A DNA stretch of 64,000 bases from Rhodobacterales bacterium 32-67-9 (lineage in GTDB: Bacteria > Pseudomonadota > Alphaproteobacteria > Rhodobacterales > Rhodobacteraceae), in NCBI GenBank assembly GCA_002280515.1, contig NCEA01000010.1:62001-126000 (forward strand). The letters are read 5' to 3'. The translations under genes and the position numbers were made by a program. Positions within the stretch are counted from its first letter, which is position 1; each line of letters opens with the position of its first letter. Below, piece after piece: positions 18,564 through 22,539 of the stretch. Below the pieces are notes generated by a model. It was not told the DNA's origin and searched no databases. It saw only the letters and a list, made by a program, of their open reading frames with translations.

Positions 18564-18717
18564 CCGCCCCTGGCCCGCCGCTCCCGGGCGGCGCCAGGTC
18601 GGGTTGAGCGCCACCAGCGGTCGGGCAGATTCGCTTTCTTTCGCAAGTCCGCCGTGCGGGCGTAACAAAAATAGCCTCAAACCGCCGGTTGCGACACATT
18701 GTTCCGGATTTTGCCGG

Positions 18718-18746
18718 TTGACGCCCCCGTGAAGCCTGCATAATGT
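18718..18746 (+). promoter_or_regulatory. Promoter of the ilv leader and acetolactate synthase genes
   Basis: TTGACG (18718-18723), a 17-base spacer and TAATGT (18741-18746) make a near-consensus sigma-70 promoter. Transcription from about 18753 would include the leader peptide at 18778 and the attenuator before the first structural gene at 18913. Confidence 0.75.
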
Positions 18747-18777
18747 TCGCCGCGCAGCAGCAAAGGAACCCCGGGCG

Positions 18778-18825
18778 ATGGCACCGATCCTCGTACTTGG
18801 CAGGACATGGCGCATGGGCCGGTGA
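18778..18825 (+). CDS. ilv leader peptide, 15 aa, with Ile-Leu-Val-Leu run
   Basis: ATG at 18778, nine bases after AAAGGAA, opens a 16-codon frame: MAPILVLGRTWRMGR and stop. Residues 4-7 (codons at 18787-18798) are Ile, Leu, Val, Leu, that is, all three branched-chain amino acids. It lies between a good promoter and a terminator upstream of the acetolactate synthase genes. A ribosome stalled at these codons would leave 18811-18818 free to form the antiterminator; one reaching the stop at 18823 would cover it. This matches the logic of proteobacterial ilv leader peptides. Confidence 0.8.
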   Translation: MAPILVLGRTWRMGR

Positions 18826-18876
18826 CGGTTGACCATAGTGGTTCCCATGCGCCCCCGAAAATCTCGGGGGCTTTTT
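18809..18876 (+). promoter_or_regulatory. Transcription attenuator of the ilv genes (antiterminator/terminator switch)
   Basis: The terminator is GCCCCCGA (18851-18858), a five-base loop and TCGGGGGC (18864-18871), followed by TTTTTG. The antiterminator is a perfect 10-bp pairing of GGCGCATGGG (18809-18818) with CCCATGCGCC (18844-18853). The two structures share 18851-18853 and cannot form together. The 5' arm of the antiterminator lies inside the leader peptide, 11 bases past its Ile-Leu-Val-Leu codons. Shortage of these amino acids should therefore favour readthrough into the structural genes. Confidence 0.8.
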
Positions 18877-18912
18877 GTTGCGTAATGAACGGCACGGACG
18901 GAGAAAACAGAG

Positions 18913-20667
18913 ATGTCACGGCAGATGACCGGTGCGAAGATGGTGGTTCAGGCGCTGAAGGATCAGGGCGTCGAAGTGGTCTTCGGCTATCCCGGCGGCG
19001 CGGTGCTGCCGATCTATGACGAGATCTTCCAGCAGAACGACATCCGCCACATCCTCGTGCGCCACGAACAGGGCGCGGTCCACATGGCCGAGGGCTATGC
19101 CCGCTCGACCGGCCGGCCGGGCGTCGTGCTCGTGACCTCGGGCCCCGGCGCGACCAACGCCGTTACCGGCCTCACCGACGCCTTGATGGATTCGATCCCG
19201 CTCGTCGTGCTGACCGGACAGGTGCCGACCTTCATGATCGGCACCGACGGCTTCCAGGAGGCCGACACCGTCGGCATCACCCGGCCCTGCACCAAGCACA
19301 ACTGGCTGGTCAAGGACACCGACAAGCTGGCCGAGACCATCCACCAGGCCTTCCACGTCGCCACCCACGGCCGCCCCGGTCCGGTGCTGATCGACATTCC
19401 GAAGGACGTTCAGTTCGCGACCGGCACCTATTCCGCCGCGCGCGAGGCGCGGGTCGCGCATTACCAGCCGAAGGTGAAGGGCGACCTCGCCCGGATCACC
19501 GAACTGGTCGAACTGATGGAAAAGGCCGAGCGGCCGATCTTCTATACCGGCGGCGGCGTCATCAACTCGGGCCCCGGCGCGAGCCAGCTTCTGCGCGAAC
19601 TGGCCGATGCGACCGGCTTTCCCGTCACCTCCACCCTGATGGGCCTTGGCGCCTATCCGGCGAGCGGCAAAGGCTGGATCGGCATGCTCGGGATGCACGG
19701 GCTTTACGAGGCCAACCTTGCCATGCATGGCTGCGACCTGATGATCAACCTCGGGGCACGGTTCGACGACCGGATCACCGGGCGCATCCCGGATTTTTCG
19801 CCGCGCTCCAAGAAGGCGCATGTCGATATCGACCCCTCCTCGATCAACAAGGTGATCCGGGTCGACATTCCGATCGTCGGCGATGTCGGGCATGTTCTGG
19901 AAGACCTTTTGAAGGTCTGGAAGTCGCGCGGCCGCAAGGTCAACAAGGACGGCCTTGCCAAGTGGTGGGGCCAGATCGAGCAGTGGAAACTGAAGCGCTG
20001 CCTGACCTACAAGAACTCCGAAAAGACCATCAAGCCGCAATACGCGCTGGAACGGCTGGAGGCGCTGACCAAGGGCCGCGACCGCTATGTCACGACCGAG
20101 GTCGGCCAGCACCAGATGTGGGCGGCGCAGTTCCTCGGCTTCGAGGCGCCGAACCGCTGGATGACCTCCGGCGGGCTCGGCACGATGGGTTACGGCTTCC
20201 CGGCCTCGATCGGGGTGCAGATCGCGCATCCGGATGCCCTCGTCATCAACGTCGCGGGCGAGGCGTCGTGGCTGATGAACATGCAGGAAATGGGCACCGC
20301 TACCCAGTTCCGCACCCCGGTGAAGCAGTTCATCCTCAACAACGAACGGCTGGGCATGGTGCGCCAGTGGCAGCAGCTCCTGCACGGCGAGCGCTATTCG
20401 CATTCTTGGAGCGAGAGCCTGCCGGATTTCGTCAAGCTCGCCGAGGCCTTCGGCTGGAAGGGCATCCAGTGCTCGGACCCGAAGACGCTCGACGATGCGA
20501 TCATGGAGATGCTCGACTACGACGGGCCGGTCCTTTTCGACTGCCTCGTCGAGAAGCACGAGAACTGCTTCCCGATGATCCCCTCCGGCAAGCCGCATAA
20601 CGAGATGCTGCTGGGCGACGCCTCGACCGAAGGCGCGATCCAGGCCGGCGGCGCGGTTCTGGTCTGA
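18913..20667 (+). CDS. ilvB: Acetolactate synthase large (catalytic) subunit
   Basis: The ThDP enzyme condenses two pyruvates, or pyruvate with 2-oxobutyrate, in the first common step of valine, leucine and isoleucine synthesis. At 584 aa it is the usual length of the alphaproteobacterial (IlvI-like) large subunit. Visible features are the catalytic Glu in LVRHEQGAVHMAEG, the FAD-binding middle domain (GARFDDRITGRI), and the C-terminal ThDP/Mg domain (MTSGGLGTMGYGFPASIG, then AGEASWLMNMQEMGT). Start ATG is at 18913. Expression is under the leader-peptide attenuator upstream. The regulatory subunit gene follows, but after an intervening gene. Confidence 0.97.
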   Translation: MSRQMTGAKMVVQALKDQGVEVVFGYPGGAVLPIYDEIFQQNDIRHILVRHEQGAVHMAEGYARSTGRPGVVLVTSGPGATNAVTGLTDALMDSIPLVVLTGQVPTFMIGTDGFQEADTVGITRPCTKHNWLVKDTDKLAETIHQAFHVATHGRPGPVLIDIPKDVQFATGTYSAAREARVAHYQPKVKGDLARITELVELMEKAERPIFYTGGGVINSGPGASQLLRELADATGFPVTSTLMGLGAYPASGKGWIGMLGMHGLYEANLAMHGCDLMINLGARFDDRITGRIPDFSPRSKKAHVDIDPSSINKVIRVDIPIVGDVGHVLEDLLKVWKSRGRKVNKDGLAKWWGQIEQWKLKRCLTYKNSEKTIKPQYALERLEALTKGRDRYVTTEVGQHQMWAAQFLGFEAPNRWMTSGGLGTMGYGFPASIGVQIAHPDALVINVAGEASWLMNMQEMGTATQFRTPVKQFILNNERLGMVRQWQQLLHGERYSHSWSESLPDFVKLAEAFGWKGIQCSDPKTLDDAIMEMLDYDGPVLFDCLVEKHENCFPMIPSGKPHNEMLLGDASTEGAIQAGGAVLV

Positions 20668-20708: not shown

Positions 20709-21941
20709 ATGAGCGCCGAACAGCCGCGCGATGTCAGCAGGATCGTCTCATGGGTCATGAGGATCGTGCTGCTCGTCCTCTTCGCGTTTCTCTACGGGGT
20801 CTATTCCGGCGTGACGCGCGGGCCGGCCTATGCCGTGATCTCGTCGCTCCTCGATACGACGCGGCAGGTGCTGGAGCAGGTGCCGAACCTCCTCGGCACC
20901 GAGCCCGTCGATTTTCTCCAGCCGGCACGCCAGCCCGGCGCCGGCGTCACGATCAACGAGACGGACGATGGCCGGCTGGTTGCCATCTCGGGTTTCTTCG
21001 ACGGGCAGAACGGCATCCGGCTGATGCGCCGCGACGGCACGGTCGTGGCCTCATGGACCCTGTCGTTCTCGCGCGATTTCCCCGAGACCGGCTACCTGAG
21101 GAGCATCGCGCCCAAGACCGACTGGAACGTCGACCTCCACGGGATGGTTGTGAAGCCCGACGGCTCGGTCCTTGTGAACTACGAATATGCCGGTCTCATC
21201 AAGCTCGATCGCTGCGGCAGAACGCAATGGACGCTGGAACACCCGACGCACCATTCGATCGAGCCCGCCGAGGGGGGCGGCTACTGGGTGCCCGGGCTGC
21301 GGTTCCTGATTCCCGGCGCGATGGAGGACAGCTTTCCCCCCTTCACCGACATGCGGAACGCGCGCGAGTTCTTCGACAACCTGATCCTCAAGGTGACCGA
21401 GGACGCGTTTGCGCCGGCTTTCCCGCAGTTCCGCGCGGGCGACCTGCTGCTGTCCTTACGGGAACACAACATGCTTCTGGTGGTCGACCCGGTCACCTGG
21501 CGGGTCAAATGGTCCCAGGTCGGTCCCTGGCGCCGCCAGCATGACCCGAGGTTCATGGCCGACGGCACGATCACGCTCTTCAACAACAACGCTTACCGCA
21601 CCATCCTCGGCGAGGGCGACGAAAGCCCCGTCGACGCCCCCCGCGTTTCCGAGATCGGCCGGCTGGACCCGAAGACCGGGCAGTATGGAACGGCCTGGGG
21701 CAACCGGCCCGGGCAGGAAATGCTGAGCGTCATCCGTGGCAAGGAAGTGCCGACCGCCGGCGGCGGCTTCATCGTCACCGAATTCGAGGCCGGTCGCGCG
21801 TTCGAGACCGATGCGGCCGGCAGGATCGTCTGGGAATACATCAACCGCTACGACGAGACCCGCGTCGCCGAGATCACCGAGGCGCGGTCTTACCCCGCCT
21901 CCTATTTCACCGTATCCGACTGGTCCTGCCCGACGCCCTGA
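20709..21941 (+). CDS. Arylsulfotransferase-like (ASST family) membrane-anchored protein
   Basis: The 410-aa protein has an N-terminal membrane anchor or signal (about 12-37, SWVMRIVLLVLFAFLYGVYS) and an extracytoplasmic beta-propeller-like domain. Repeats of the type VVKPDGSVLVNYE, QHDPRFMADGTITLFNN and VPTAGGGFIVTEFEAGRAFE recall bacterial arylsulfate sulfotransferases and related ASST/arylsulfotran_2 proteins. Histidines at positions comparable to the family (DLHGMVV, THHSIE, RRQHDP) are kept. The substrate is unknown. It lies between the genes for the two acetolactate synthase subunits, 41 bases after one and 37 before the other, an odd partner for that pathway. SD AGAAGGGG precedes the ATG. 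Confidence 0.75.
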   Translation: MSAEQPRDVSRIVSWVMRIVLLVLFAFLYGVYSGVTRGPAYAVISSLLDTTRQVLEQVPNLLGTEPVDFLQPARQPGAGVTINETDDGRLVAISGFFDGQNGIRLMRRDGTVVASWTLSFSRDFPETGYLRSIAPKTDWNVDLHGMVVKPDGSVLVNYEYAGLIKLDRCGRTQWTLEHPTHHSIEPAEGGGYWVPGLRFLIPGAMEDSFPPFTDMRNAREFFDNLILKVTEDAFAPAFPQFRAGDLLLSLREHNMLLVVDPVTWRVKWSQVGPWRRQHDPRFMADGTITLFNNNAYRTILGEGDESPVDAPRVSEIGRLDPKTGQYGTAWGNRPGQEMLSVIRGKEVPTAGGGFIVTEFEAGRAFETDAAGRIVWEYINRYDETRVAEITEARSYPASYFTVSDWSCPTP

Positions 21942-21978: not shown

Positions 21979-22539
21979 ATGTCCGCACTCAATATCAAGA
22001 AGGGCTCGACCAGCCATTCCGCCTATGATCTGCGCGATCCACATGCCGAGGTCGCCGGGCGCCATACGCTGACGGTGCTGACCGACAACGATCCCGGTGT
22101 CCTCGCCCGCGTGGCGGGGCTCTTTACCGGGCGGGGCTACAATATCGAAAGCCTCACCGTCGCCGAGGTCGATCACAAGGGGCATCTGTCGCGCTTCACC
22201 ATCGTCACGACCGGCACGCCGACGGTGATCGAACAGATCAAGGCGCAGCTTGGCCGGATCGTGCCGGTGCACGAGGTGCATGACCTGACGGTCGAGGGGG
22301 CTTCGGTGGAGCGGGAACTGGCGCTCTTCAAGGTCACGGGGACCGGCGAGAAACGCGTCGAGGCGCTGCGGCTCGCCGATATCTTCCGCGCCAACGTGGT
22401 GGATTCGACGCTGGAAAGCTTCGTCTTCGAGATCACCGGGACACCGGAAAAGATCGACGCCTTCGCCGACCTGATGCGCCCTCTGGGCCTTGCCGACGTG
22501 GCGCGAACCGGCGTCGCCGCCCTGCCGCGCGGTGTCTGA
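21979..22539 (+). CDS. ilvN: Acetolactate synthase small (regulatory) subunit
   Basis: The 186-aa protein is the valine-responsive regulatory subunit. The N-terminal ACT domain (HTLTVLTDNDPGVLARVAGLF, about residues 29-49, then RGYNIESLTVAE) is followed by the ALS_ss_C domain (ELALFKVTG, DSTLESFVFEITG). The start is set at MSALNIKKGS (21979) with AAGGAAGAGAG upstream; the frame extends further 5' without homology. Presumably it is cotranscribed with the large-subunit gene through the ASST-like gene. Confidence 0.96.
   Translation: MSALNIKKGSTSHSAYDLRDPHAEVAGRHTLTVLTDNDPGVLARVAGLFTGRGYNIESLTVAEVDHKGHLSRFTIVTTGTPTVIEQIKAQLGRIVPVHEVHDLTVEGASVERELALFKVTGTGEKRVEALRLADIFRANVVDSTLESFVFEITGTPEKIDAFADLMRPLGLADVARTGVAALPRGV

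Follow-up and report, generated by a model that had tools for sequence, protein, structure and literature searches.

Leader-peptide attenuation of the ilv genes is textbook knowledge. Attenuators of this kind are said to have been predicted before ilvIH in alphaproteobacteria by Vitreschak et al. in 2004. In Escherichia coli, ilvBN and ilvGMEDA are each preceded by a leader peptide rich in branched-chain residues that governs a choice between terminator and antiterminator, and the excerpts of PMC6123439 give these leaders 32 residues, 11 and 15 of them branched-chain. Leader-peptide control of ilv genes, which the first-pass annotation of the present locus took to be established in proteobacteria, has precedents that include Caulobacter ilvBN, where the excerpted source describes a leader with tandem Ile and Val codons (PMC4117421; Tarleton et al. 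1994 there). Excerpts of two further papers, both citing Vitreschak et al. 2004, term an alphaproteobacterial ilvB leader peptide previously described (PMC1273637) and list a cis element of Sinorhizobium meliloti ilvIH (PMC2573895). According to such excerpts, the alphaproteobacterial ilvIH and ilvB leaders are short and contain branched-chain codons; they lie ahead of the acetolactate synthase operon, with an intrinsic terminator behind the leader.

Two other systems invite comparison. The uORFC-8-2 motif before cysS is likewise a leader-ORF attenuator conserved in Rhodobacterales, but with cysteine codons and cysS as its target; the likeness is one of description, not of structure, in the excerpts of that source (PMC8632094). 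Atu_C8 (Rfam RF02502), listed as a small RNA of Rhizobiales, comprises a leader with a run of Val codons, a long GCGCATGGG/CCCATGCGC stem, a stop codon at a hairpin loop and a terminator. The locus described here has the same architecture, with Ile, Leu and Val codons in its leader, although Atu_C8 precedes an MFS transporter in the loci read and has a stem that shares no bases with the terminator.

The present locus lies upstream of ilvB in the window, the whole 64,000-nucleotide stretch of DNA that was analysed. It shares the layout of the alphaproteobacterial ilv leaders and, with 15 codons of which four are branched-chain, is far more compact than its E. coli counterparts. Its sequence and modelled folding indicate that it is very probably a ribosome-mediated transcription attenuator of ilvB. 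As such it would be at most a new member of the known ilv attenuators, ilv attenuation in itself being ordinary. Its stop codon sits in a hairpin of its own, a feature that the excerpted descriptions of alphaproteobacterial ilv leaders do not mention, as far as a comparison by description can tell.

Anatomy of the ilvB leader region

Direct reading of positions 18700-18912 bears out the first-pass annotation of this region (Table 1). Both promoter boxes lie where it had put them, and the 15-codon leader with a Shine-Dalgarno sequence and Ile-Leu-Val-Leu at codons 4-7, the perfect 10-bp pairing of the antiterminator arms and the 8-bp terminator with five T are all present as it had claimed. The two helices do have three bases in common (18851-18853). 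The stop-codon hairpin and the second hairpin are absent from that annotation.

Table 1. Features of the leader region and the acetolactate synthase genes, in window positions
Feature	Position	Strand	Basis
Promoter: -35 TTGACG (18718-18723), -10 CATAAT (18739-18744), 15-nt spacer	18718..18744	+	read in sequence
Leader Shine-Dalgarno AAAGGAA	18762..18768	+	read directly
Leader ORF MAPILVLGRTWRMGR and stop; ATG 18778, TGA 18823-18825, 15 codons	18778..18825	+	sequence and 78 loci
Control codons 4-7, ATC CTC GTA CTT	18787-18798	+	inside leader ORF
Antiterminator 5' arm GGCGCATGGG (codons 11-14)	18809..18818	+	alignment
Stop-codon hairpin CCG-GUGA-CGG, UGA within GNRA-type loop, nested in antiterminator	18819..18828	+	pairing in relatives
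Second hairpin GACCA-UAG-UGGUU, third arm of antiterminator junction	18831..18843	+	predicted fold
Antiterminator 3' arm CCCATGCGCC	18844..18853	+	sequence, alignment
Intrinsic terminator GCCCCCGA-AAAUC-UCGGGGGC and T5; arms 18851-18858 and 18864-18871	18851..18876	+	sequence, folding energy, alignment
ilvB, acetolactate synthase large subunit, regulated gene	18913..20667	+	NCBIfam NF006581 (1134.1 bits), TIGR00118 (777.6 bits)
ilvH/ilvN, small subunit (presumed)	21979..22539	+	sequence

The region therefore holds a short ORF with a ribosome site and a run of branched-chain codons upstream of a biosynthetic gene and, by sequence, an intrinsic terminator between leader and gene. An AGGA lies 8 nt 5' of an AUG inside the antiterminator arm (18802-18816), and many relatives carry GTAGGA at a similar distance. 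Internal initiation at this AUG in the stretch encoding RMGR, if it occurs, would mask the arm too.

Four further IlvB matches in the genome are just 28-31% identical, which leaves the gene at 18913..20667 as its one close acetolactate synthase gene. The closest named ilvB loci belong to Rhodobacteraceae. The downstream ORF at 21979 we take to encode the small subunit. In the window it is separated from ilvB by an arylsulfotransferase (ASST)-type gene (20709-21941, PF14269), of which a homolog was found at a single locus (L001) among 80 ilvB loci; the gap between ilvB and ilvH is below 100 nt in 54 of the 71 loci at which ilvH was found. Elsewhere in the window, the minus strand at 51257-51312 matches Rfam RF02940 (COG3860 RNA) above its gathering score, at 62.4 bits.

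At the leader itself no Rfam family reaches its gathering score, and neither a metabolite riboswitch nor a T-box was found there at the gathering score or at E values up to 10. The sole lead was a sub-threshold match to Atu_C8, at 17.2 bits over the full model (E 0.84; gathering score 50).

Conservation across the family

Eighty-five loci were compared, namely the 80 best ilvB loci of a scan (83-93% identity), the window and four genomes of the same family. A leader with both arms precedes ilvB in 78 of them. A covariance model built from these 78 elements, R2, matches 170 of 199 family genomes and leaves 29 without a match, in a scan whose filters lose some weak ones. The leader codons and stems, which the first-pass annotation had proposed to align across relatives, are thus conserved on both counts. 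In all 30 of the best-scoring of these 170 genomes, those that were fetched, ilvB is the next gene, about 25-80 nt downstream. Two copies of ilvB, both preceded by an attenuator of their own, occur in one family genome, G441 (L258 and L259; leaders MGPILVVPKRMRMGR and MADIVILVGKWRMGR), and second R2 matches also occur in G491, G497 and G531.

The details of the leader are equally persistent. It has 15 codons in 69 of the 78 elements, ends in RMGR in 72 and combines codons for all three of Ile, Leu and Val in 69. The control codons are strongly biased towards rare ones: GTA makes up 54% of Val control codons versus 3.7% of Val codons in the ilvB genes at these loci, with 30% versus 1.2% for CTA among Leu codons and 54% versus 12% for ATT among Ile codons. 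TTGAC lies 5' of the leader in all 78 elements (shuffled mean 6.3), and the best promoter spacer is 15 in 68 of the 77 relatives scored.

Seven of the 85 loci have no full match. The sequence of one (L022) begins within the element and matches R2 from that point on (46.5 bits), two (L059, L068) carry diverged versions, and a fourth (L051) has a terminator and a different stem with a two-valine ORF. No element was found on reading the region upstream of ilvB in L056. Within the 300 nt read 5' of ilvB, the two Paracoccus loci (L070, L079) have no leader, stem or terminator and retain just a TTGAC promoter-like site, which suggests a probable loss of the attenuator.

Base pairing and covariation

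Folded on its own, the 131-nt leader is unremarkable, with 26 of 200 shuffles folding equally well or better (z -1.13). Folding statistics were for that reason dropped as proof of the element, and the case for it is made by comparison across relatives rather than by folding alone. In the alignment of the 78 sequences (A1), paired cells amount to 94.5% in the antiterminator, 96.6% in the stop-codon hairpin, 92.8% in the inner terminator and 95.5% over the eight pairs of the terminator. Pairing falls to 25-57% when the partners are slid. Five pairs of the whole structure are changed on both sides, a number reached by none of 500 shuffles. Double changes occur in four terminator pairs, and one pair of the stop-codon hairpin shows changes from C-G to U-A or G-C. 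Of the 22 double-change cells, 15 fall in a single terminator pair, and the covariation score of the structure shows no gain over a one-column slide of the partners (0.085 and 0.086).

Double changes are absent from the antiterminator pairs among the 78 sequences, so that covariation speaks for the terminator and for the hairpin at the stop codon, though not for the antiterminator stem. The latter is suggested by its near-invariance, its tolerance of G-U pairs and the different stems found in a few diverged loci. Nine of its ten pairs are standard in at least 75 of the 78 sequences and the outermost in 39; the nine inner pairs contain nine one-sided G-U cells and four broken ones across the 78 loci. 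The stop-codon hairpin, CCG-G-U-A/G-A-CGG, pairs in 72 of the 78 versus 2.4 in shuffles.

The best predicted fold of 18809-18853 is a three-way junction of the antiterminator stem, the stop-codon hairpin and the second hairpin, at -25.0 kcal/mol, compared with -18.2 for the bare antiterminator stem and -17.6 for the terminator of the window. The CCAU of the second hairpin can instead pair with AUGG at 18814-18817, and this alternative, scored as at least four Watson-Crick pairs, is available in 62 of 78 sequences versus 7.9 in shuffles. A reading of this hairpin as a whole as a competitor of the antiterminator was set aside, its inner part being nested in the antiterminator and only the outer AUGG/CCAU part competing. 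The lowest-energy fold of the full region in the window keeps the whole terminator together with a shortened antiterminator.

Ribosome position and the predicted switch

The ribosome was assumed to reach 15 nt beyond the first base of the P-site codon, and switching was expressed as equilibrium folding probabilities. With codon 7 in the A site, the edge of a ribosome of this footprint stops 1-2 nt short of the antiterminator arm in 68 of 78 loci. A stalled ribosome would thus spare the arm, and one at the stop codon would cover it. The first-pass annotation had predicted this geometry, and equilibrium folding agrees: the bottom terminator pair of the window closes with a probability of 0.99 when the ribosome has reached the stop codon, 0.38 when it stalls at codon 6 or 7 and 0.95 on RNA free of ribosomes. 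The last value implies that termination is to be expected when the leader is not translated, as it is for classical attenuators. Over the 78 loci the median closure is 0.98 for a ribosome at the stop and 0.38 for a stalled one, and a few ilvB loci do not switch (L001 at 0.92, L007 at 0.91). An alternative helix is therefore set against the terminator, with partial exclusion. Antiterminator and terminator overlap by just 2-3 nt in 76 of 78 loci, so that the two helices can nearly coexist and the modelled switch is probably graded.

Transcription would begin just 3' of the promoter at 18718. With Ile-, Leu- and Val-tRNA charged, the ribosome should pass the rare control codons without delay and arrive at the UGA, in a hairpin loop inside the antiterminator, which would melt. 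The terminator would then form and a short RNA of about 125 nt be released. Should any of the three tRNAs be uncharged, the ribosome would halt within codons 4-7, its leading edge lying just short of the 5' arm. The antiterminator could then fold first, as a three-way junction, and take the bottom three pairs of the terminator, and the polymerase, its terminator blocked, would continue into ilvB under branched-chain starvation.

Related elements before an MFS transporter

Across the class, R2 matches 15 of 278 genomes: four in the family, seven others and four weak. The seven matches outside the family (L246-L251, L253) all precede one type of gene, an MFS transporter whose representative P0001 scores 208.1 bits against TIGR00710. 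The class matches L252, L254, L255, L256 and L257 (the second match of G022) were set aside as lacking a leader plus stem. The reverse search with R2 finds the Atu_C8 loci weakly, at 17.7-34.2 bits.

A search of the class with P0001 found homologs in 29 of 269 genomes. In 13 of these the best copy is at least 53% identical, with the element upstream in eight and absent in five. The eight elements span seven alphaproteobacterial families other than Rhodobacteraceae, all at loci previously brought in by the RNA search. None of 17 fetched copies of lower identity, including the 45% copy of the window genome itself, has a leader and arm by eye, and R2 was run on four of them. A plasmid set independent of the RNA search consisted of 15 homologs, hand-picked among 30 listed of 31 records with one. 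The element lies upstream in eight of these (R2 23.2-81.1 bits), from Phaeobacter, Roseobacter denitrificans, Leisingera, Burkholderia arboris, Rhizobium lusitanum, two R. etli and Phyllobacterium. The four from Rhizobiales are full-scoring Atu_C8 elements, at 96.9-111.5 bits.

Five of the 15 plasmid homologs have neither the element nor a TPP riboswitch. A TPP riboswitch takes its place on Agrobacterium pAt2 and a Mesorhizobium plasmid (L292:1252-1368 and L300:1249-1365; 74.6 and 75.4 bits), a hint that this MFS clade moves nutrients or their analogues. On a conjugative Leisingera plasmid (L299:1-3984), the MFS gene and its element adjoin a chloramphenicol phosphotransferase-family gene, a GNAT gene and a second MFS gene, neighbours that would fit a drug-related role instead.

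The hairpin around the stop codon is a recurrent feature. In 23 of 24 elements, the window included, a hairpin loop contains two or more bases of the stop codon, the 23 being those with a leader found. The stems vary (CCG/CGG, GGAUGGU/ACCAUCC, GGCGGC/GCCGCC, GGUAGC/GCUGCC, GCGGUUCUC/GAGAGCCGU, UGCG/CGCA and UCGGC/GCCGA), with only two pairs in L299. Against shuffled flanks, the hairpin reaches p 0.05 in 11 and p 0.01 in 6 of 20 elements (L251, L208, L301 and the window left out), and the 78 ilvB elements with their three-pair stem, taken one by one, do so in 15 cases and one case.

Stop-codon hairpins also occur, with unrelated arms, in ilvB leaders of two other families (L131 and L128 in one, L151 in the other); the L149 leader has none on reading. 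A crude attenuator screen of ilvB in the rest of the class, which misses elements, flagged 8 of 88 upstream regions. Four are same-family controls; of the others, L131 and L151 appear genuine, L149 is doubtful and L160 fails to convince. L128 was found by eye alone. The candidate leaders L118 and L119 were dropped, there being no T-run terminator in the stretch read downstream. An exact-arm pattern occurs in 14 of 385 genomes of the class, of which five of the same family and G107 are real, and the match L136 proved on reading to have neither leader nor terminator.

The architecture is clearly conserved across this family of sequences, and the shared arms suggest common descent of the ilvB and MFS elements. 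The evidence tilts towards a single mobile attenuator family, in which a leader of 14-18 codons, with branched-chain or Val codons, ends in a stop codon at the loop of a hairpin; this hairpin is nested in a long stem, and a terminator follows. Such a family would control ilvB in Rhodobacteraceae. Elsewhere, namely in seven further families of alphaproteobacteria, on Roseobacteraceae and Rhizobiales plasmids and in a Burkholderia, it would control one MFS transporter clade annotated as efflux, and Atu_C8 would be its terminated leader.

Alternative explanations

The near-invariance of the arms may have a further cause, namely that the short RNA, once released, or the leader peptide has an additional role in trans, as described for rnTrpL and peTrpL of Sinorhizobium in excerpts of PMC7298713 and PMC10117765. 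The arms GCGCATGGG and CCCATGCGC hardly vary over the 78 loci, and CCCATGCGCC persists in the MFS-type elements L246, L248 and L250 despite a mismatched 5' arm, which pairing alone does not explain. The listing of the related Atu_C8 as a small RNA points the same way. However, the strong elements whose neighbours were checked all lie in cis, before ilvB or the one transporter clade, and a trans role of this kind seems rather unlikely.

A reading of about the same low probability makes the 9-10-bp stem a separate domain, such as a pause or coupling hairpin, with the choice of terminator set otherwise. The overlap of 2-3 nt would suit it, as would much of the wider family. In the Atu_C8-type elements and L131 the long stem is clear of the terminator, and closure is the same or nearly so in the stalled and terminating states (0.81 and 0.81 in L294, 0.81 and 0.80 in L303, 0.66 and 0.66 in L131). 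With hardly any predicted switching there, mutual exclusion would explain just part of the family. Among the R2-type MFS elements, L246 and L248 switch weakly and L249, L250 and L253 not at all; L293, L296 and L297 switch with an earlier stall in the Val run rather than at its last codon. Against a separate domain stand the fall in closure from 0.99 to 0.38 in the window and the strong switch of L247, from 0.85 to 0.00-0.04, where the terminator is read as overlapping the arm by 5 nt. Finally, a chance ORF beside the ordinary terminator of an upstream transcript, for which the unremarkable z-score might speak, is next to inconceivable given the conservation of leader, stems, promoter and spacing.

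Implications

Ribosome-mediated attenuation stands as the preferred reading for ilvB. Among the top open-literature matches, none links Atu_C8 or a leader peptide to a CflA-type transporter, and by title none of the best matches concerns a leader element of this type in Rhodobacter or Roseobacter. An element common to ilvB and an MFS transporter clade, with full-scoring members of Atu_C8 among its copies, is apparently new; this, the new reading of Atu_C8 and the hairpin at the stop codon are the parts that merit a specialist's attention.

For the organism, the element means probable regulation of the only close acetolactate synthase gene of its genome. More broadly, a catalogued small RNA family, Atu_C8, may be re-read as an attenuator leader, and a transporter annotated as drug efflux would be linked to the charging of valine tRNA. 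The hairpin loop at the stop codon, whose stem varies between lineages, may serve as a feature for finding more attenuators. The element seems to have moved between genes and would offer an example of an attenuator that serves both a biosynthetic gene and a transporter, in several families and on plasmids. If the reading as one mobile family is true, the transporter would answer to valine supply, which would point to nutrient uptake or homeostasis and not primarily to drugs.
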